A DNA stretch of 64,000 nt from NCBI GenBank assembly GCA_017860345.1, contig JAFNAV010000006.1, positions 1 to 64,000 on the forward strand, read 5' to 3'. The DNA comes from Bacteroidota bacterium (GTDB lineage Bacteria; Bacteroidota; Bacteroidia; Bacteroidales; Paludibacteraceae). A program made the position numbers and the translations under genes. The notes below the pieces were generated by a model that saw only the letters and a program-made list of their open reading frames with translations, was not told the origin of the DNA and ran no database searches. Shown here piece by piece: positions 20,268 through 62,753 of the stretch (position 1 is the first letter of the stretch; each line of letters begins with the position of its first letter).

Positions 20268-21578
20268 TTACGATAGCATGGTAAGTAATATACCAGCAGC
20301 AACTGCCGAGCCAATAACTCCAGCCACGTTTGGTCCCATGGCGTGCATAAGCAGGAAGTTGCCCGGGTCGGTTTCCTGACCCACCACCTGCGATACGCGA
20401 GCTGCCATTGGTACTGCCGATACACCTGCCGAACCGATAAGCGGATTAACTTTGTCTTTGGTAAACAGGTTCATCAGCTTGGCCAATAATACACCACCAG
20501 CAGTACCAAACGAAAACGCTACGATACCGATAGCCAGAATTTCAATGGTCTTCATATTGAGGAAGGCAGATGCTGTAGCTGTAGCCCCAACTGTTATCCC
20601 CAAAAATATGGTGGTTATATTCATTAACTCATTCTGAACGGTTTTGCTCAATCGCTCTACCACACCGCTTTCTTTCAGTAAGTTACCCAACATAAGACTG
20701 CCGATAAGTGGCGCAGCCGGCGGTAACAGAAGCGATACAAAAGCTGTAGCAAAAATCGGGAAAATGATTTTTTCTTTCTTTGATACGATACGCAACTGTT
20801 TCATCCGGATGGCACGTTCTTTTTTGGTGGTAAGTGCCCGCATAATTGGAGGTTGAATAACCGGAACTAATGCCATGTACGAATATGCGGCCACTGCAAT
20901 AGGTCCTAATAGTTCGGGAGCTAACCTGCTCGTTAAGAAAATAGCTGTAGGACCATCTGCTCCACCAATAATACCGATAGATGCAGCTTCGTTAGGCATA
21001 AATCCTAAGCCGATAGCACCAAGATAGGTGGCAAATATACCTAACTGGGCGGCTGCTCCGAGAAGTAAACTTTTGGGGTTGGCAAGCATAGGGCCAAAGT
21101 CGGTCATTGCACCTACACCAATAAAGATGATACAAGGGTAAATTCCTAATTTAACACCTAAATAAAGGTAATCCAGCAAACCGGCGTTGTTTACAAATAT
21201 ATCCCAATGTACATGTCCTCCTTCGAACAATGAGGGATTGTAAAGCCCGGCACCTGGCAGATTTGTAAGCAACATCCCAAACGCAATTGGTAGTAGCAAT
21301 AAAGGCTCAAACTGCTTTACAATAGCCAGATACAAAAGCAGACACGCCACAAATATCATAAGCAACGTCTGCCAGTTAAGATTTGCAAAGCCTGTGCCAT
21401 CAACAAAATTTATAAAACTTTCTTCGATAAATGCTAATCCTGACGTTGGTTCCTGCACCTGAGTATTAGTTACGGTGGTGGTATCGGAGGCTACAGGAGC
21501 CTCCTGAGCCCAAACCCTTGTCGTAATACTTGTCGACAGGAAAGCAATCAGTATAAAAATATATTTAATTGTCTTCAT
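20268..21578 (-). CDS. oadB: Na+-translocating decarboxylase beta subunit
   Basis: A 436-residue membrane subunit that uses decarboxylation of carboxybiotin to export Na+. The core signature [20 protein letters not shown], with the essential Asp, lies at about residues 200-220, followed by [13 protein letters not shown]. Several hydrophobic segments fit the OadB/MmdB/GcdB fold. The N-terminus is odd: about 25 residues resembling a cleavable signal peptide (ending RVWAQ), then a polar segment of about 25 residues before the first family helix. It is the last gene of the mce-mmdA-oadG-carrier operon, 27 bp after the carrier. Confidence 0.95.
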
Positions 21579-21605: not shown

Positions 21606-22331
21606 TTACTCCATGTCGAACAGTACATCGTCCTGCATCACCGTTTGTCCGGGTTGAACATGCACGGTTTTTACCACAGCATCTCTTTCGGAAAGAATAT
21701 TGTTTTCCATTTTCATGGATTCAAGTGTCATTAGCAGGTCGCCACGCTTTACGCTTTGTCCGGCTTTAACGGCTACTTTCAATACACTTCCGGGCAGCGG
21801 CGATTTTACTGCTTTAGTTCCACCCTGCGATTTTGCCGGAGCTGGTGTAGCGGGAGCTGGAGCCGGTTCTGCTTTGGCAGCTACCGGTGCAGCTGGTGCG
21901 GCTACTACTGCTTCTTCAGTACCTTCAAAGTCGATAAGTACATCGTCCTGCATCACTGTTTGTCCAGGCTGAACATGTACATTGCGGATTATTCCATCAT
22001 TTTCAGCCAAAATGTTGTTCTCCATCTTCATCGACTCCATGGTCATCAGCAGATCTCCACGTTTTACATTTTGCCCTGCTTTTACCAACACCTTCATAAT
22101 GCTTCCGGGTAGCGGAGCTTTGATGGCACTTGCCATCACCGTGCTTTTAGGCGAAACTATTGGTGCTACTTTACCGGCTGGTTTACGGTTGATGGTTGAT
22201 ACTTTTTCTTGCTTTTCAATCTCTACCGTAAAAGGAGTGCCATTTACTTCAATTTCGGCAACGTTTTTTTCTATCTCGTTTACAGATACTTCGAATTCGC
22301 TTCCGTTTATTTTAAATTTGAATTTCTTCAT
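21606..22331 (-). CDS. Biotin carrier with two tandem biotinyl domains
   Basis: A 241-residue carrier subunit. Residues ~70-137 and ~175-241 are two near-identical biotinyl domains. Each has the target ESMKMEN, so K102 and K207 should be biotinylated, and each ends with HVQPGQTVMQDDVL. An Ala/Pro-rich flexible linker (residues ~144-168) joins them, and residues 1-60 form the usual N-terminal region. Carriers of this family normally have one such domain. It should shuttle carboxyl groups from the carboxyltransferase to OadB. Six bp separate it from oadG upstream. Confidence 0.95.
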   Translation of the reverse strand: MKKFKFKINGSEFEVSVNEIEKNVAEIEVNGTPFTVEIEKQEKVSTINRKPAGKVAPIVSPKSTVMASAIKAPLPGSIMKVLVKAGQNVKRGDLLMTMESMKMENNILAENDGIIRNVHVQPGQTVMQDDVLIDFEGTEEAVVAAPAAPVAAKAEPAPAPATPAPAKSQGGTKAVKSPLPGSVLKVAVKAGQSVKRGDLLMTLESMKMENNILSERDAVVKTVHVQPGQTVMQDDVLFDME

Positions 22332-22336
22332 AATGA

Positions 22337-22711
22337 TTATTTTACCAAGTTATTTAAACCATAAATTTTTGAACTCCACGGCGAATAGCGTCTCTCTACG
22401 GTTTTAATCGTTATTACCGTGCTTTCTTCGTCGTGCACTTCGGCATAATACAAGTGCAATGCCATAGCGATGGCTGCACTGTAATTGGCCGACAGGTGAT
22501 CTTCTTCATATTCCTCTTCCTGCTCAATAGCTTCGGGGTTCTGAATTGTTTCATTGGTTTTCTTTTGCTTTGGTACCCTGACCTTTGGAGCCACGGCTTT
22601 GCTGAACAAACTCAGCACAATTACAAGCATGATAAGCAATACGAAAACCATTCCAAGTCCGAAACCTACTATATCGAGGGCATTTGCCCAATCAATTTTT
22701 GTTAAAATCAT
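22337..22711 (-). CDS. oadG: OadG-family decarboxylase gamma subunit
   Basis: A 124-residue single-pass membrane protein. One hydrophobic helix (residues ~14-38, GFGLGMVFVLLIMLVIVLSL) is followed by a basic stretch and a charged acidic linker (EQEEEYEEDH), then a C-terminal segment with YSPWSSKIYGL. The gamma subunit anchors and assembles the decarboxylase at the membrane. The conserved C-terminal part AAIAMALHLYYAEVHDEES resembles the family in Bacteroidota. It lies 9 bp after mmdA and 5 bp before the carrier gene. Confidence 0.9.
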   Translation of the reverse strand: MILTKIDWANALDIVGFGLGMVFVLLIMLVIVLSLFSKAVAPKVRVPKQKKTNETIQNPEAIEQEEEYEEDHLSANYSAAIAMALHLYYAEVHDEESTVITIKTVERRYSPWSSKIYGLNNLVK

Positions 22712-22720
22712 GGTTCTGAA

Positions 22721-24280
22721 TTATAAAGGAATATTTGAATGTTTCTTAAGCGGATTAACCACTTTCTTGGTTTGAAGTGCCTGGAACGCACGAATTACGC
22801 GGAAGCGTGTATTTCTTGGTTCTATTACATCGTCGATATAACCATAAGAAGCTGCCATGTAAGGATTTGCGAATTTCACTTTGTATTCTGTAACCTTTTC
22901 GTCGATAAATTTGGCTTTTTCTTCGGCGTCGGTGATGGCGGCTATTGCACGTCCTTCGAGTACTTCGATAGCTCCGGCAGCGCCCATTACCGCAATTTCG
23001 GCTGTTGGCCATGCATAGTTAAAGTCGCCACGTAATTGTTTACAGCTCATCACATCATGAGCACCTCCGTACGATTTACGAAGCGTTACGGTAACCTTTG
23101 GCACGGTAGCTTCGCCGTATGCGAACATCAGCTTTGCTCCGTGAGTAATGATACCTGCATATTCCTGACCCGAGCCCGGGAGAAAGCCGGGTACATCTAC
23201 AAGCGTAAGAATAGGGATATTGAAAGCGTCGCAGAAGCGTACAAACCGAGCTGCTTTACGCGATGCATCACAGTCGAGAACTCCTGCCAGAAAGTTTGGC
23301 TGGTTAGCAATAATCCCTGTAGATATACCGTTGAAGCGCGCAAATCCTACTATGATATTTCGGGCATAATCGGCATGTACTTCGAGGAATTTTCCGCAAT
23401 CTACAATTCCGGAAATTATCGACTTCATGTCGTAAGGCATATTCGGATTATCCGGTATTATCGTGTTTAGCGCATCTTCCAGTCGGTTAATTGGGTCGTT
23501 GCAATCTTCAATCGGAGCTTCTTCCAGGTTGTTTTGAGGTAGATAAGAAATAAGCTCGCGAATGGTTTGAATACCGGTTTGTTCGTCGGGTACCCGGAAG
23601 TGTGACACTCCTGATTTGCGGGCATGTACATCAGCACCACCCAGATTTTCGGTAGTGATATCTTCGCCGGTTACCGATTTTACAACTTTAGGTCCGGTAA
23701 CAAACATGTACGCATTTTCTTCGCTCATCAGGATAAAGTCGGTCAGGGCAGGGGAATATACTGCTCCACCGGCACAAGGACCAAAAATGGCCGAAATCTG
23801 GGGAATAACTCCCGATGCCAGGATATTGCGTTCAAAAATTTCGGCATATCCGGCCAGCGAAGTAACACCTTCCTGTATACGTGCGCCTCCCGAGTCGTTG
23901 ATACCTACCACCGGAGCGCCCATTTTCATGGCCATATCCATAACTTTGCAAATTTTCAAAGCCATGGTTTCCGACAGCGAACCACCGAATACGGTAAAGT
24001 CCTGCGCAAACACAAAAACTGTGCGGCCATCAATAGTTCCGTGACCGGTAATTACACCATCGCCCAGATATTTCTCTTTTTCCAGTCCGAAGTTGTTGCA
24101 ACGGTGTGTAACGAACATATCCAGTTCTTCAAAACTGCCTTCATCCAACAACATATGGATACGTTCGCGGGCTGTGAATTTACCTTTGGCATGCTGAGCC
24201 GCAATTCTTTTCTCTCCACCACCTAACTTGGCCTGTACACGCAGGTCAATCAGATTTTTTACTTTTTTTTGATTTTCCAT
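22721..24280 (-). CDS. mmdA: Methylmalonyl-CoA decarboxylase/propionyl-CoA carboxylase carboxyltransferase subunit
   Basis: A 519-residue acyl-CoA carboxyltransferase with two crotonase-like halves. The acyl-CoA-binding oxyanion motif is GPCAGGAVYSPAL in the N-half, and the carboxybiotin motif is near SYGGAHDVM in the C-half, with VDVPGFLPG and AVMGAAGAIEVL between and after. With Mce upstream and OadG, carrier and OadB downstream, it most likely takes the carboxyl from (S)-methylmalonyl-CoA, giving propionyl-CoA. It is 93 bp after mce. No biotin carboxylase gene is in this operon, which favours the decarboxylase role. Confidence 0.96.
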   Translation of the reverse strand: MENQKKVKNLIDLRVQAKLGGGEKRIAAQHAKGKFTARERIHMLLDEGSFEELDMFVTHRCNNFGLEKEKYLGDGVITGHGTIDGRTVFVFAQDFTVFGGSLSETMALKICKVMDMAMKMGAPVVGINDSGGARIQEGVTSLAGYAEIFERNILASGVIPQISAIFGPCAGGAVYSPALTDFILMSEENAYMFVTGPKVVKSVTGEDITTENLGGADVHARKSGVSHFRVPDEQTGIQTIRELISYLPQNNLEEAPIEDCNDPINRLEDALNTIIPDNPNMPYDMKSIISGIVDCGKFLEVHADYARNIIVGFARFNGISTGIIANQPNFLAGVLDCDASRKAARFVRFCDAFNIPILTLVDVPGFLPGSGQEYAGIITHGAKLMFAYGEATVPKVTVTLRKSYGGAHDVMSCKQLRGDFNYAWPTAEIAVMGAAGAIEVLEGRAIAAITDAEEKAKFIDEKVTEYKVKFANPYMAASYGYIDDVIEPRNTRFRVIRAFQALQTKKVVNPLKKHSNIPL

Positions 24281-24373: not shown

Positions 24374-24784
24374 TTATTTTCCGGGGTCTTCGCAGAGTTC
24401 TGTAAGCACTCCGAAGGTTGATTTTGGATGAAGAAATGCGATGTTTAAACCTTCAGCGCCTTTGCGGGGTGCTTTGTCGATAAGCGCAACGCCTTTTTCT
24501 GCTACCAAATCCAGAGTTTCCTGCAAACCTTGTACGGCAAATGCTACATGGTGAACTCCTTCGCCTTTTTTCTCGATAAATTTGCCAACAGGTCCTTCTG
24601 GATCGGTCGATTCAAGCAATTCTATCTTGGTTTGTCCAACTTTGAAGAATGCAGTTTTTACTTTTTGCTCGGCTACTTCTTCTACTGCGTAACATTTTAA
24701 ACCTAATACATTTTCGTAATAAGGAATTGCAGTTTCAAGGCTTTTTACGGCTATTCCCAGGTGTTCGATGTGAGTTAAATTCAT
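24374..24784 (-). CDS. mce: Methylmalonyl-CoA epimerase
   Basis: A 136-residue protein of the glyoxalase/vicinal-oxygen-chelate fold. It interconverts (R)- and (S)-methylmalonyl-CoA. Metal ligands are visible in THIEHLGIAVKS (His8), EGVHHVAFAV and the C-terminal LTELCE. Length is standard. It is the first gene of the decarboxylase operon, directly behind a promoter and a 24-bp palindrome, so it links methylmalonyl-CoA mutase (not in the window) to the Na+ pump. Confidence 0.96.
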   Translation of the reverse strand: MNLTHIEHLGIAVKSLETAIPYYENVLGLKCYAVEEVAEQKVKTAFFKVGQTKIELLESTDPEGPVGKFIEKKGEGVHHVAFAVQGLQETLDLVAEKGVALIDKAPRKGAEGLNIAFLHPKSTFGVLTELCEDPGK

Positions 24785-24831
24785 AATTTCTTTATTTTAT
24801 TTTGTGATTAATACAATTGTGAAAATCGATC

Positions 24832-24855
24832 AATTAAAGAAATATTTCTTTAATT
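24832..24855. promoter_or_regulatory. Palindromic operator of the mce-mmd operon
   Basis: A perfect 24-bp palindrome, AATTAAAGAAAT followed by ATTTCTTTAATT. It sits just downstream of the expected transcription start, a repressor-like place. The same sequence with one change lies before the oadA-like gene at 61635-61658. Confidence 0.75.
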
Positions 24856-24868
24856 TTTTATTTTGCCG

Positions 24869-24900
24869 CAAAATTACTACAAATATTCTTCATTATCAAC
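24869..24900 (-). promoter_or_regulatory. Promoter of the mce-mmd operon
   Basis: On the minus strand GTTG (24900-24897), a 20-nt spacer and TAATTTTG (24876-24869) fit the Bacteroidota promoter, with one mismatch in the -33 box. Confidence 0.6.
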
Positions 24901-59731: not shown

Positions 59732-61489
59732 CTAATTTTGCTGTATATAAGCAATTACATCACCTTTTGAGGCCATTTCGCCCTGTTTTTTCTCAATACC
59801 TACAATTCGTCCGTTGCAGAAGCTGTTCACCTGCTCCAGCCCGTAGCGGGTTTGAAGTACGCAAAGCATGTCCTTTTCTTTTACAGCTTTTCCATGTACT
59901 GGTTCTTTCGATACGTCTTCGTAATCAATTTCCCACAACACTCTGCCGGTAGCAGGCGCTACAACCGGTTCGGCGTTCGGATATTTCAGCATTCTGATAT
60001 CGGGAATTTCGATATTCTGTTTTGCATATTTCTCCGAAATAGCTGTTTCAAGTTCGGCATTGAAGCGTTTTTTTGCGTCGCCCGATTTATAATCGCGGTA
60101 TTGTTTTTCGTGCATGGCAAATTCAAACAGTTCTTCATCGTCCTGACCTCTGTCCCAGCCTTTTTCTTCCATTTCCTTGATAAAACGATCCAGTTCATTC
60201 GGATAGTTTTCCTGAGGGTCGCCTTCGTAAAATTCGTAGTTATTCTTTTTGGCCAGCTCAATTATTTCAGGTGCAAGCGTTCCCGGAAGTTTGCCTGCTT
60301 TGCCCAGAATCATGTCCCAGGTGTTTTTGTCGATCATGCTCCAGCGAGGCTGACCTTTTACCATAAACATCACATTCATCAGGGCAATATTTTTTACGTA
60401 CTGACTGAAAGGTGTCACCAATGGTGGATTGCCCAATTTTGGCCAAATATATTTCACTTCGTCGAAAAGCATCACAAGTAAATCGTCGGTGCTGAGTTCT
60501 TTTTTACCATTGTCTTTCAGGTAACTGTTGATACCGGCATGCACGCCTTTGAGGTCGGCCATAAGCGAACCCATCATACCGCCCGGTAAACCACAGCCTA
60601 CGAGCAACGAAGTCATAAACCGATTGCGTTCATCGATAAAATATCCCAGAAAATCATCGATGAAGCTTTGGGTAAGCCTGCGGGCTTCCATATAAGCTTT
60701 CATGTTGATTTCCGGTACTTTAAATCCTGCATCTTTCAACATAGCCTGAATGGTGATTACATCGGGATGAACCATACCCCACGACAGCGGTTCCATAGCC
60801 ACATCTAAATAATCGCCGCCGGCTTTGGCCACTTCAAGCATCGAAGCCACAGAAAAACCAGGTCCGGTATGGCCATGATATTGTATGATAATATCCGGAT
60901 GAGCAGTTTTTATTGCTTTTACAATTTGACCAAGCATAACAGGACGTCCAACGCCAGCCATATCTTTCAGACAAATTTCTTTAGCTCCGGCGGCTATCAG
61001 TTGCTCCGACAGATTTACGTAATACTCCACAGTATGCACATCCGAATAGGTGATACACATGGTTGCTTGTGGAATCATCCCGGCTGCATTGGCATATTGA
61101 ATAGATGGAATGATATTGCGCGGGTCGTTCAGTCCGCAAAAAATACGGGTAATATCTACTCCCTGCGATTTTTTTACTTTATACATCAATTCGCGTACAT
61201 CGGCAGGCACGGGGTTCATGCGTAATCCGTTCAGTCCGCGGTCGAGCATGTGAGTTTGTATGCCCACTTCATTAAATGGCTTTGTAAACGTACGCACAGC
61301 ATCGTTAGGATTTTCGCCAAAAAGCAGGTTTACCTGTTCCGATGCACCACCATTGGTTTCTACACGTGCAAAACAGCCCATATCGATAATTACGGGAGCT
61401 ATTTGCTCTAACTGGTCTTTCCGGGGAACATATTTCCCCGACGATTGCCACATATCGCGATAAACGAGGCTGAACTTAATTTCTTTCAT
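59732..61489 (-). CDS. OadA/pyruvate carboxylase B-like carboxyltransferase with biotinyl-like domain lacking the Lys
   Basis: A 585-residue protein. Residues 1-~290 form the HMGL-like TIM barrel with the metal site R11-D12, carbamyl-Lys candidate K175 (CLKDMAG) and H205/H207 (HGHTGPG). The conserved carboxylase (PYC_OADA) domain follows. Residues ~510-585 form a biotinyl/lipoyl-like domain, but where others have EAMKM this reads QTRYG, so Tyr549 sits at the biotinyl-Lys position. It cannot carry biotin itself and must use a separate carrier if active. It should work on oxaloacetate or pyruvate. The promoter region shares a palindrome with the mmd operon. Confidence 0.9.
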   Translation of the reverse strand: MKEIKFSLVYRDMWQSSGKYVPRKDQLEQIAPVIIDMGCFARVETNGGASEQVNLLFGENPNDAVRTFTKPFNEVGIQTHMLDRGLNGLRMNPVPADVRELMYKVKKSQGVDITRIFCGLNDPRNIIPSIQYANAAGMIPQATMCITYSDVHTVEYYVNLSEQLIAAGAKEICLKDMAGVGRPVMLGQIVKAIKTAHPDIIIQYHGHTGPGFSVASMLEVAKAGGDYLDVAMEPLSWGMVHPDVITIQAMLKDAGFKVPEINMKAYMEARRLTQSFIDDFLGYFIDERNRFMTSLLVGCGLPGGMMGSLMADLKGVHAGINSYLKDNGKKELSTDDLLVMLFDEVKYIWPKLGNPPLVTPFSQYVKNIALMNVMFMVKGQPRWSMIDKNTWDMILGKAGKLPGTLAPEIIELAKKNNYEFYEGDPQENYPNELDRFIKEMEEKGWDRGQDDEELFEFAMHEKQYRDYKSGDAKKRFNAELETAISEKYAKQNIEIPDIRMLKYPNAEPVVAPATGRVLWEIDYEDVSKEPVHGKAVKEKDMLCVLQTRYGLEQVNSFCNGRIVGIEKKQGEMASKGDVIAYIQQN

Positions 61490-61612: not shown

Positions 61613-61620
61613 CAAATATA
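61613..61620 (-). promoter_or_regulatory. -7 box of the oadA-like gene
   Basis: TATATTTG on the minus strand matches TAnnTTTG and gives a leader of about 115 nt. The palindrome at 61635-61658 covers the -33 region. Confidence 0.6.
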
Positions 61621-61634
61621 ATACAAATTCTTTC

Positions 61635-61658
61635 AATTAAAGAAATTTTTCTTTAATT
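61635..61658. promoter_or_regulatory. Palindromic operator before the oadA-like gene
   Basis: AATTAAAGAAA-TT-TTTCTTTAATT: 11-bp perfect arms. Over 30 bp (61633-61662) it differs at only two places from 24830-24859 before mce. It covers the -33 area, so a bound protein would block or replace RNA polymerase contacts. Confidence 0.75.
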
Positions 61659-61872
61659 TATTTTACTGAAAATCAATTTGTTGAATTTTGATTGTAATTA
61701 TTTTTGCCTTAAAATTTATGATGTAAAACTTTATAGCTCTAAAAGTAAAAAAATTGAAGAACAGAGCCGCTTATTGTTTTAAAATATAATTTTTAATCTC
61801 GTACATGAAGTCTTTTTTAAATATAAAAACTCCCCTGAATAATGAACTTTTTCATGACTTCAGGCTTTATAC

Positions 61873-61907: not shown

Positions 61908-62753
61908 ATGACATATTTAAAGAAACCGGAATGGCTTCGGACCAAACTCTATAGTGAGTCGAAATTTTCGCATGTAAGTCAGGTTATCAAAGACCATGGT
62001 TTGCATACGATTTGCACCAGCGGGCGTTGTCCTAATCAGAGCGAATGCTGGAGCAAAGGTACTGCTACATTAATGATAGCGGGCGATATATGTACCCGTG
62101 CTTGTAAATTTTGCAATACAATCACCGGCAGACCGCTTCCTTTAGATGCGGATGAACCACGCAAAGTGGCTGAGTCTATCCGGCTTATGAAACTTCGCCA
62201 CGCGGTAATTACCTCTGTAGACAGAGATGATCTTAAGGATCATGGTGCCGGACATTGGGCTGAAACAATCAGAATGGTAAAAAAGCTAAATCCTGAAACT
62301 ACGCTCGAAGTACTTATTCCCGACTTTATTGGCAGGGAGGAGTTAATAGATATGGTGATTAACGAGCAACCGAATATTATTTCGCATAATCTGGAAACCG
62401 TTCGGCGATTGACCCCCGAGATACGTACGCGTGCCAAATATGATGTAAGCCTTAAAGTGCTGCAATATATTGCTTCTAAAGGTATTGTGGCCAAAACAGG
62501 TATTATGCTTGGTTTGGGCGAAACGGAGGAGGAAGTGCTACAGCTGATGGATGATGCTTTGGCGCATGGGTGCAGTATTATTACCATCGGGCAATATATG
62601 CAACCGTCGCGAAACAATGTGGCGGTTACTGAGTATATCCACCCCGACAAATTTGCCGAATATAAGGAGATAGCATTGAAGAAAGGATTCAGGCAGGCTG
62701 AGAGCGGGCCGTTTGTGCGCTCATCTTATTGTGCCGAGAAGCATGTTTTATAG
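61908..62753 (+). CDS. lipA: Lipoyl synthase
   Basis: A 281-residue radical SAM enzyme that inserts two sulfurs into protein-bound octanoate. The auxiliary cluster ligands are in CTSGRCPNQSEC (C-x4-C-x5-C) and the SAM cluster in CTRACKFC (C-x3-C-x2-C). The C-terminal GPFVRSSYCAEKHVL supplies the conserved RSSY Ser. Normal length. lipB is not next to it. Ends at a perfect hairpin. Confidence 0.97.
   Translation: MTYLKKPEWLRTKLYSESKFSHVSQVIKDHGLHTICTSGRCPNQSECWSKGTATLMIAGDICTRACKFCNTITGRPLPLDADEPRKVAESIRLMKLRHAVITSVDRDDLKDHGAGHWAETIRMVKKLNPETTLEVLIPDFIGREELIDMVINEQPNIISHNLETVRRLTPEIRTRAKYDVSLKVLQYIASKGIVAKTGIMLGLGETEEEVLQLMDDALAHGCSIITIGQYMQPSRNNVAVTEYIHPDKFAEYKEIALKKGFRQAESGPFVRSSYCAEKHVL

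Follow-up and report, generated by a model that had tools for sequence, protein, structure and literature searches.

The window, by which we mean the whole 64-kb stretch of DNA that was analysed, carries two copies of a palindrome that is very probably the operator of a Bacteroidales form of Rex, an NAD(H)-responsive winged-helix repressor, in which the DNA-reading surface has changed. The sites, the genes beside them, their conservation, their co-occurrence with one Rex subfamily and the match of changed residues to changed bases are computed results, and from them we infer that Rex binds the operator, represses and is released by NADH. If Rex reads these operators, which precede nearly every step from phosphoenolpyruvate (PEP) to succinate and propionate in these gut and sediment bacteria, the NADH/NAD+ ratio would set the whole propionate pathway as one unit. 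In gut and anaerobic fermentation, the succinate and propionate formed by Bacteroidales rank among the major products. The system would also offer a natural example of joint change in a repressor and its operator and would allow predictions at the level of single residues and bases. Rex itself is already recognised in these genomes by existing models, and the operator, the regulon, the changed helix and the changed switch in Bacteroidales appear to be the new part. In the open-licence literature searched, neither a Rex operator of Bacteroidales, its regulon, nor the changed helix or switch is reported, and no regulator of the propionate pathway was found there; there may be a prediction in RegPrecise or an article in a subscription journal. 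In PMC12578642, Rex occurs with Bacteroides as the name of an author, and a review (PMC8063818) that mentions Porphyromonas does so for OxyR and as an abbreviation in a table.

Copies of the proposed operator in the window and across the genome

Operator 1, a putative Rex site in the form of a perfect 24-bp palindrome (AATTAAAGAAATATTTCTTTAATT, positions 24832–24855), is located 5′ of the mce-mmd operon and 3′ of its −7 box, and operator 2, likewise a putative Rex site (AATTAAAGAAATTTTTCTTTAATT, 61635–61658), lies between a pycB-like gene and the divergent lipA. The initial annotation had described identical 11-bp arms, two differences over 30 bp and no third copy in the window, and all of this was reproduced: the two 24-bp sites share their arms and differ at one position, the surrounding 30-bp stretches (24830–24859 and 61633–61662) differ at two, and a search of the window at up to three mismatches returned two sites. 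A degenerate 22-mer at up to four mismatches found the same two and no third copy in the window. In dinucleotide shuffles of the window (n = 100), the mean number of matches at up to three mismatches was 0.01, and none of the 100 shuffles contained two or more. Putative −7 boxes were assigned at both loci by the Bacteroidota −7 promoter consensus. The box of the mce-mmd operon (TAATTTTG, 24869–24876, minus strand) has the centre of operator 1 lying 33 bp downstream of its start, and operator 2 is centred 26 bp upstream of the start of the box assigned to the pycB-like gene (TATATTTG, 61613–61620, minus strand). The positions originally given to the two sites, downstream of the expected start of mce transcription and over the −33 region, therefore hold.

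The operon behind operator 1 is encoded on the minus strand and consists of mce for methylmalonyl-CoA epimerase (24374–24784; TIGR03081, 148.9 bits, cut-off 114.95), an mmdA-like carboxyltransferase of the methylmalonyl-CoA decarboxylase alpha type (22721–24280; 771.5 bits against TIGR01117, below the cut-off of 998.8, and 645 bits against PF01039), an OadG-like gamma subunit (22337–22711; PF04277, 49.5 bits, cut-off 27), a biotin carrier with two biotin/lipoyl domains (21606–22331; two stretches matching PF00364) and the beta subunit of a sodium-pump decarboxylase (20268–21578; TIGR01109, 530 bits, cut-off 190.6). The pycB/oadA-like carboxyltransferase at the other site (59732–61489, minus strand) scores 224.5 bits against PRK09282, below the cut-off of 402, and 65.2 bits against PF02436. 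Its C-terminal stretch, EPVHGKAVKEKDMLCVLQTRYGLEQV, gives a weak alignment to the biotin/lipoyl domain, with no recognisable MKM-like biotinylation lysine motif in the translation, and the protein may use a carrier encoded elsewhere, for example the two-domain carrier of the mmd operon. The divergent neighbour of operator 2 is lipA, which encodes lipoyl synthase (61908–62753, plus strand; TIGR00510, 356.6 bits, cut-off 310.25) and may or may not be controlled by this site.

Across the source genome (113 contigs, 3.27 Mb, 86% complete), the 24-mer matched eight sites at up to three mismatches and its reversed-pattern control matched none, and the degenerate 22-mer ATTAVRGAAAWWTTTCYBTAAT matched nine sites at up to two mismatches, with a control count of 0. 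Five more sites with exactly three mismatches to the 22-mer are regarded as noise because they equal the control count (5). The nine sites precede pckA (TIGR00224, 783 bits), mdh, a class I fumarase gene (913 bits, below the full-length cut-off of 1094, with the protein cut at the locus end), frdC-frdA-frdB, a CoA transferase of the succinate/acetate type (above cut-off in succinate and butyryl/acetate CoA transferase models), mutA-mutB (TIGR00642, 650 bits; PRK09426, 1309 bits), mce-mmd, the pycB-like gene and a type-2 NADH dehydrogenase (NDH-2; Pyr_redox_2 and NDH2_C). The route to propionate starts at PEP, has oxaloacetate, malate, fumarate, succinate, succinyl-CoA and methylmalonyl-CoA as its intermediates and leads to propionyl-CoA, and the set of sites is this succinate-propionate route from PEP together with an NADH dehydrogenase. 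The initial annotation had proposed a decarboxylase regulon, along with a whole-genome scan for the palindrome as a check, to see whether matches precede propionate genes. The scan found sites before mutAB, mce-mmd, the pycB-like gene and the rest of the route, and the proposed regulon proved too narrow; a decarboxylase-only regulon is rejected, since the majority of the targets are not decarboxylases. A weak pair of sites in the same genome (C23:5252 and 5277; L298 and L299), with three mismatches and 25 bp apart, lies directly 5′ of a DsrE-like gene and, being at control level, is possibly due to chance.

The complete genome G016, from the same genus, has 11 sites, and all nine units of the source genome also carry sites there. 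The other two G016 sites (L330:1507 and L327:1525) have two mismatches; one lies by a Fur-family gene (PF01475), and the remaining one adjoins a 230-aa gene, NifU-like by eye, and another gene, so that the Fur-family and NifU-like genes are possible extra targets. In G056, which belongs to another family, six sites precede pycB, mdh, frdC, nqrA, mce and pckA. A pattern scan in which each of 84,980 species was represented by a single genome matched at least 116 stretches, of which 80 were listed as loci (L044–L123). The pattern had been loosened after an earlier scan, so this result depends in part on the sites already known, and the listed loci say nothing about absence elsewhere. Among the 80 listed loci, 78 come from Bacteroidales groups, Marinifilum or unresolved Bacteroidetes/Bacteroidia, and the remaining two from Maribacter (Bacteroidota, another class) and Nostoc. 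An energy-metabolism gene is found beside the site in 71 of the 80 listed loci, as judged by sequence clusters whose names rest on one or few representatives each and with NhaD and RseC-like genes counted: pckA (38 loci), nuoA (5), pycB (5), mdh (4), nqrA (3, one shared with pckA), frdC (3), RseC-like genes (3), HoxE/NuoE-like genes (2), nhaD (2), pfl (2), fumarase (2), and mutA, CoA transferase and NDH-2 (one each). The other nine listed loci lie by lysS, lipA or unassigned genes or are the Maribacter and Nostoc matches. Putative further targets in other Bacteroidales loci are nuoA, nqrA, pfl, NhaD and the HoxE/NuoE-like and RseC-like genes. The source genus takes in genomes deposited as Paludibacter (G022 and G063).

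Co-occurrence of the sites with one Rex subfamily

Rex was proposed from the register in which the palindrome lies about its dyad. The source genome has one Rex, and its gene is located on another contig (C45:3317–3988, L161). Both the winged-helix domain (PF06971, 56.7 bits) and the Rossmann domain (PF02629, 63.6 bits) score above cut-off, the equivalog model NF003994 gives 301.9 bits (cut-off 130), and the best match to a solved Rex has an E value of 5.7e-32. Within the source genus, all 47 genomes hold 4–18 sites and 44 of them have a Rex; the three genomes with no Rex match (75–87% complete) hold 8–15 sites. Among 35 genomes chosen for a motif locus, Rex was found in 27, with Ala48 in every one of them, and no Rex was found in Maribacter, in Nostoc or in six motif-bearing MAGs (by label, five from Bacteroidales groups and one from Bacteroidetes). 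Assembly incompleteness is the likely cause of the missing Rex in these six MAGs and in the three genomes of the source genus.

To relate the sites to the form of Rex, genomes were compared in two tables. In the first table, which draws on the same 100 relatives as the counts for the source genus and has 52 genomes representing 52 other genera, the 14 genomes with a Rex carrying Ala or Thr at residue 48 held 45 sites against 2 in the control (the helix was read in all 14, in G076 after the test), the 15 with other Rex only held 10 against 8, and the 23 with no Rex held 14 against 19 (p = 6.8e-6, a value that, like the other p-values given here, overstates independence because the co-occurrence and site-loss statistics count related genomes). 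For the second table 247 genomes of the order were drawn, 206 of them absent from the first, and the Rex class was assigned by at least 50% identity. The 31 genomes with a Rex at this level held 130 sites against 8 in the control, whereas the 89 with other Rex held 46 against 56 and the 79 with no Rex 75 against 86, together 121 against 142 in 168 genomes (31 versus 168 genomes, p = 1.2e-17 for these related genomes). Genomes with other Bacteroidales Rex only show no operator excess in either table. A site count of three or more that also exceeded double the control was reached in 25 of the 31 genomes with the subfamily Rex versus 7 of the 168 without it; G181 has a subfamily Rex and zero sites. 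Seven genomes with a Rex of 39–46% identity were left out of the second-table test and gave a mixed result (18 sites, 12 in the control). In nine families with both states, the subfamily-Rex genomes were richer in sites in eight and equal in one. Five more family contrasts, which involve Rex of 39–46% identity, showed clearly more sites in two cases, 2 versus 0 at control level in one, fewer in one and 0 versus 0 in one.

The loss of sites was followed at pckA in a subset of 28 genomes chosen from the 52, comprising 12 with the subfamily Rex and 16 with no Rex, of which 20 have an orthologous pckA and 18 a start that could be placed. A site with 0–3 mismatches lies within 400 bp upstream in 7 of the 8 genomes with the subfamily Rex versus none of the 10 without it, where at least five mismatches are present (Fisher p = 0.00025); G082 has a subfamily Rex and a pckA without a site. 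Loss of the site in close relatives with the same operons had been put forward at the outset as an observation that would count against a shared regulator. Such loss does occur for pckA within the same family and order, yet it coincides with the absence of the subfamily Rex. The original claim of one regulator common to both units, with repressor-like site positions, is supported. The candidates named with it, TetR, GntR and MarR proteins, give way to Rex on evidence gathered for Rex itself, namely co-occurrence, site loss and the recognition helix. The divergent gene of ~219 aa beside pckA was also considered as a regulator and rejected, as its cluster reads as uracil phosphoribosyltransferase (named by eye, not by HMM). 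Autoregulation of rex is rare, a site at two to three mismatches being present at 6 of 58 rex loci.

Recognition helix, operator bases and switch residues

The Bacteroidales 22-mer aligns base for base, about the same dyad, with the operator of Thermotoga maritima Rex (PDB 7WB3, operator ATTTGAGAAATTTATCACAAAA). The two systems share the protein family, the 22-bp operator length, the dyad, GAA at positions 7–9 and a regulon of NADH-linked central metabolism. In T. maritima Rex, according to PMC8836258, Arg48 reads Gua5 and Lys49 reads Gua7 and Ade8, and minor-groove contacts are made between Arg60 and Thy4 and between Gly61 and Thy3. The Bacteroidales form differs in having Ala or Thr in place of Arg48, Thr at residue 60 and a replaced pair at Tyr100 and Asp191, and the outer half of its operator is ATTA(A/C)(A/G), as opposed to the TTTG type of T. 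maritima. Arg48 is present in all four solved Rex proteins aligned. Among the 31 Rex proteins of the second table, which were selected on identity only, Ala occupies residue 48 in 26 and Thr in 5, with no Arg, and there is Lys49 and Thr60 in 31/31. A set of 60 rows was sorted by Ala or Thr at residue 48, so that the residue-48 counts in it are definitional, as is Arg in 17/17 of the Arg48 class; the claim about the helix rests on the motif-picked Rex (Ala in 27/27) and on the identity-picked Rex (Ala in 26 and Thr in 5 of 31). In the 60 rows Lys49 and Thr60 are each present in 60/60, residue 61 is Arg in 59 and Lys in one, and the GxGxxG motif (Gly89, Gly91 and Gly94) is kept in 60/60. Residue 49 is variable among other Rex, and Arg/Lys61, unlike the solved Rex, is common to other Bacteroidales Rex. 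Because Arg48 is replaced though Lys49 is kept, we regard this form as a variant and not an ordinary member of the family.

On the operator side, 36 half-sites (18 sites from two genomes) have T3, G7, A8 and A9 in 36/36 each and A4 in 35, whereas position 5 carries A in 17, C in 13, G in 5 and T in one; this conservation is biased because the sites were collected with a pattern, in which two to three mismatches were allowed anywhere. Judged from these alignments, conservation is lost at the very base (G5) whose reader, Arg48, is gone. In a rapid tree from which the diagnostic columns had been left out, the 60 Ala/Thr48 Rex proteins form one group, requiring one change, with a moderate support of 77. 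Other Bacteroidales Rex proteins, from the same order and by sequence of the same family, are mostly of the QVRRDLMLIGYSG type; 20 lower-scoring loci comprise 17 with Arg48, one with Val and two of the Ala/Thr type, and Tyr100 is kept in all 17 with Arg48. Seven second-table Rex proteins of 39–46% identity (G136, G148, G222, G226, G256, G261 and G270) have Thr or Val at residue 48 and Pro60, with Tyr100 kept, and may represent steps toward the rewired form. G226 and G270, both with Val48, have 7 sites against 1 in the control each, and the other five intermediates are without excess. The Rex of G094, likewise of 39–46% identity and perhaps another such step, combines Ala48 and Thr60 with a kept Tyr100, and this genome has no site excess.

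The operator of Staphylococcus aureus and Streptomyces Rex, given as TTGTGAAW4TTCACAA in PMC2883068, is likewise a palindrome with GAA-N4-TTC placed alike about the dyad, and its outer TTGT is missing from the Bacteroidales operator. A pattern of this canonical TTGTGAA-N4-TTCACAA type has 0 matches in the source genome. A reciprocal scan for the canonical operator, as exact TTGTNAAWWWWTTNACAA sites, gave 1 site and 0 in the control for the 14 Ala/Thr48 genomes, 4 and 2 for nine genomes of the source genus, 7 and 1 for the 15 other-Rex genomes (5 of the sites in G047) and 13 and 3 for the 23 no-Rex genomes. These counts show no clear contrast between the groups and no enrichment of the canonical sites in genomes with the subfamily Rex.

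The residues that form the NADH switch have changed as well. With NADH bound, Tyr100 of T. maritima Rex stacks on the nicotinamide and bonds Asp191, as described in PMC8836258. In the 60 Ala/Thr48 rows, residue 100 is Asp in 58 and Tyr in 2, residue 191 is Ser in 60/60 and residue 193 is Tyr in 59 and Phe in one; the 31 second-table Rex proteins have Asp in 30 and Tyr in one, Ser in 29 and Thr in 2, and Tyr in 30 and Phe in one at these three positions. The change at Tyr100 and Asp191 is possibly a swap of partners between residues 100 and 193. A wider proposal, which we put forward tentatively and consider doubtful, is that the Bacteroidales Rex has been rewired at both ends, the Arg–guanine contact having been lost for an AT-flanked operator and the switch pair rebuilt with Asp in place of Tyr100, Ser in place of Asp191 and Tyr at 193, so that the protein may sense a different NADH range, another ligand or the opposite sense and would set the succinate and propionate output of a dominant gut order.

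Promoter geometry and alternative readings

Spacings are given between the centre of the operator and the first base of TAnnTTTG. They are +37/38 at most pckA loci, +36/37 at frdC (6/6), +23 to +28 at mdh (9/9), +25/26 at four pycB loci and +49 at CoA transferase (3/3, two with a second box at +40), and the three mutA spacings are +49, +49 and +58. A spacing of +7 was found at 3/4 fumarase, 4/5 nuoA and both pfl loci, and here the right operator arm (TAAT) together with TTTG is the −7 box itself. The fused operator-promoter (TAATTTTG) is seen at L050, L062, L096 and L100 (nuoA), L071 and L123 (pfl) and L289, L320 and L091 (fumarase). Sites 3′ of the promoter occur at mce in the source genome (−33) and in G016 (−31), at nqrA in L085 (−34) and at pycB in L111 (−25); the mce site of G056 lies upstream of the −7 box at +25, and no TAnnTTTG box was found downstream of the NDH-2 site in the source genome. 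Sites over or 3′ of the −7 box suit a repressor, and those at about +49 (mutA and CoA transferase) are not in an obvious blocking position.

A Rex dimer at ATTAMRGAAAWWTTTCYKTAAT would block the promoter from over the −7 box at fumarase, nuoA and pfl, from over the −33 region at mdh and pycB and from the early transcribed region at mce-mmd. When NADH rises, Rex would leave the operator, and its release would turn on PEP carboxykinase, malate dehydrogenase, fumarase and fumarate reductase as well as CoA transferase, methylmalonyl-CoA mutase, the epimerase, the decarboxylase and the NADH dehydrogenases. As the route and the NADH dehydrogenases would be induced jointly, reducing power would be disposed of as succinate and propionate. 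It is rather unlikely that Rex binds these sites but mainly activates, or has an altered ligand response, in place of acting as a classical NADH-relieved repressor. The replaced switch residues (Tyr100 to Asp in 58/60, Asp191 to Ser in 60/60, with Tyr or Phe at 193 in 60/60) and the spacings near +25, +37/38 and +49 besides +7 would be consistent with such a change, but a blocking role, and not activation, suits the sites over the −7 box (nuoA, pfl and fumarase) and those 3′ of the promoter (mce and one locus each of nqrA and pycB), and the pathway consumes NADH, as expected of NADH-released genes.

CRP/FNR proteins govern anaerobic metabolism elsewhere, and a regulator of this family, for example one like Cur or HcpR, might bind the palindrome and control fumarate respiration and propionate formation. 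Proteins of this kind are common here, with an HTH_Crp_2 match in 50/52 genomes; however, they are present with or without sites, and at the family level their copy number is not higher in genomes with the motif. The operator core GAAAWWTTTC is also without the TGTGA or TTGAT of the usual CRP/FNR half-sites, and the changes in the Rex helix account for the operator bases. A CRP/FNR regulator is accordingly very improbable and, at the family level and on present evidence, rejected. Without any common regulator, the two sites could also have arisen by chance or belong to a structural repeat, either as AT-rich palindromes or as copies of a mobile repeat. They are indeed AT-rich, and some unrelated AT-rich genomes match often (9 matches and 12 in the control for G171, 10 and 4 for G275), but the reversed-pattern controls, the intergenic placement, the recurrence of the same genes in separate families and the loss together with Rex make this explanation exceedingly remote.

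In unrelated genes the operator-to-promoter spacings cluster near +7, +25, +37/38 and +49, in 12-bp steps. Paired operators 51–56 bp apart are present by pycB and/or lipA in L065 (1834 and 1888), L070 (5317 and 5373), L111 (2708 and 2759) and L074 (47 and 98), compared with one operator in the pycB–lipA region of the window, and cooperative binding is possible at such pairs.
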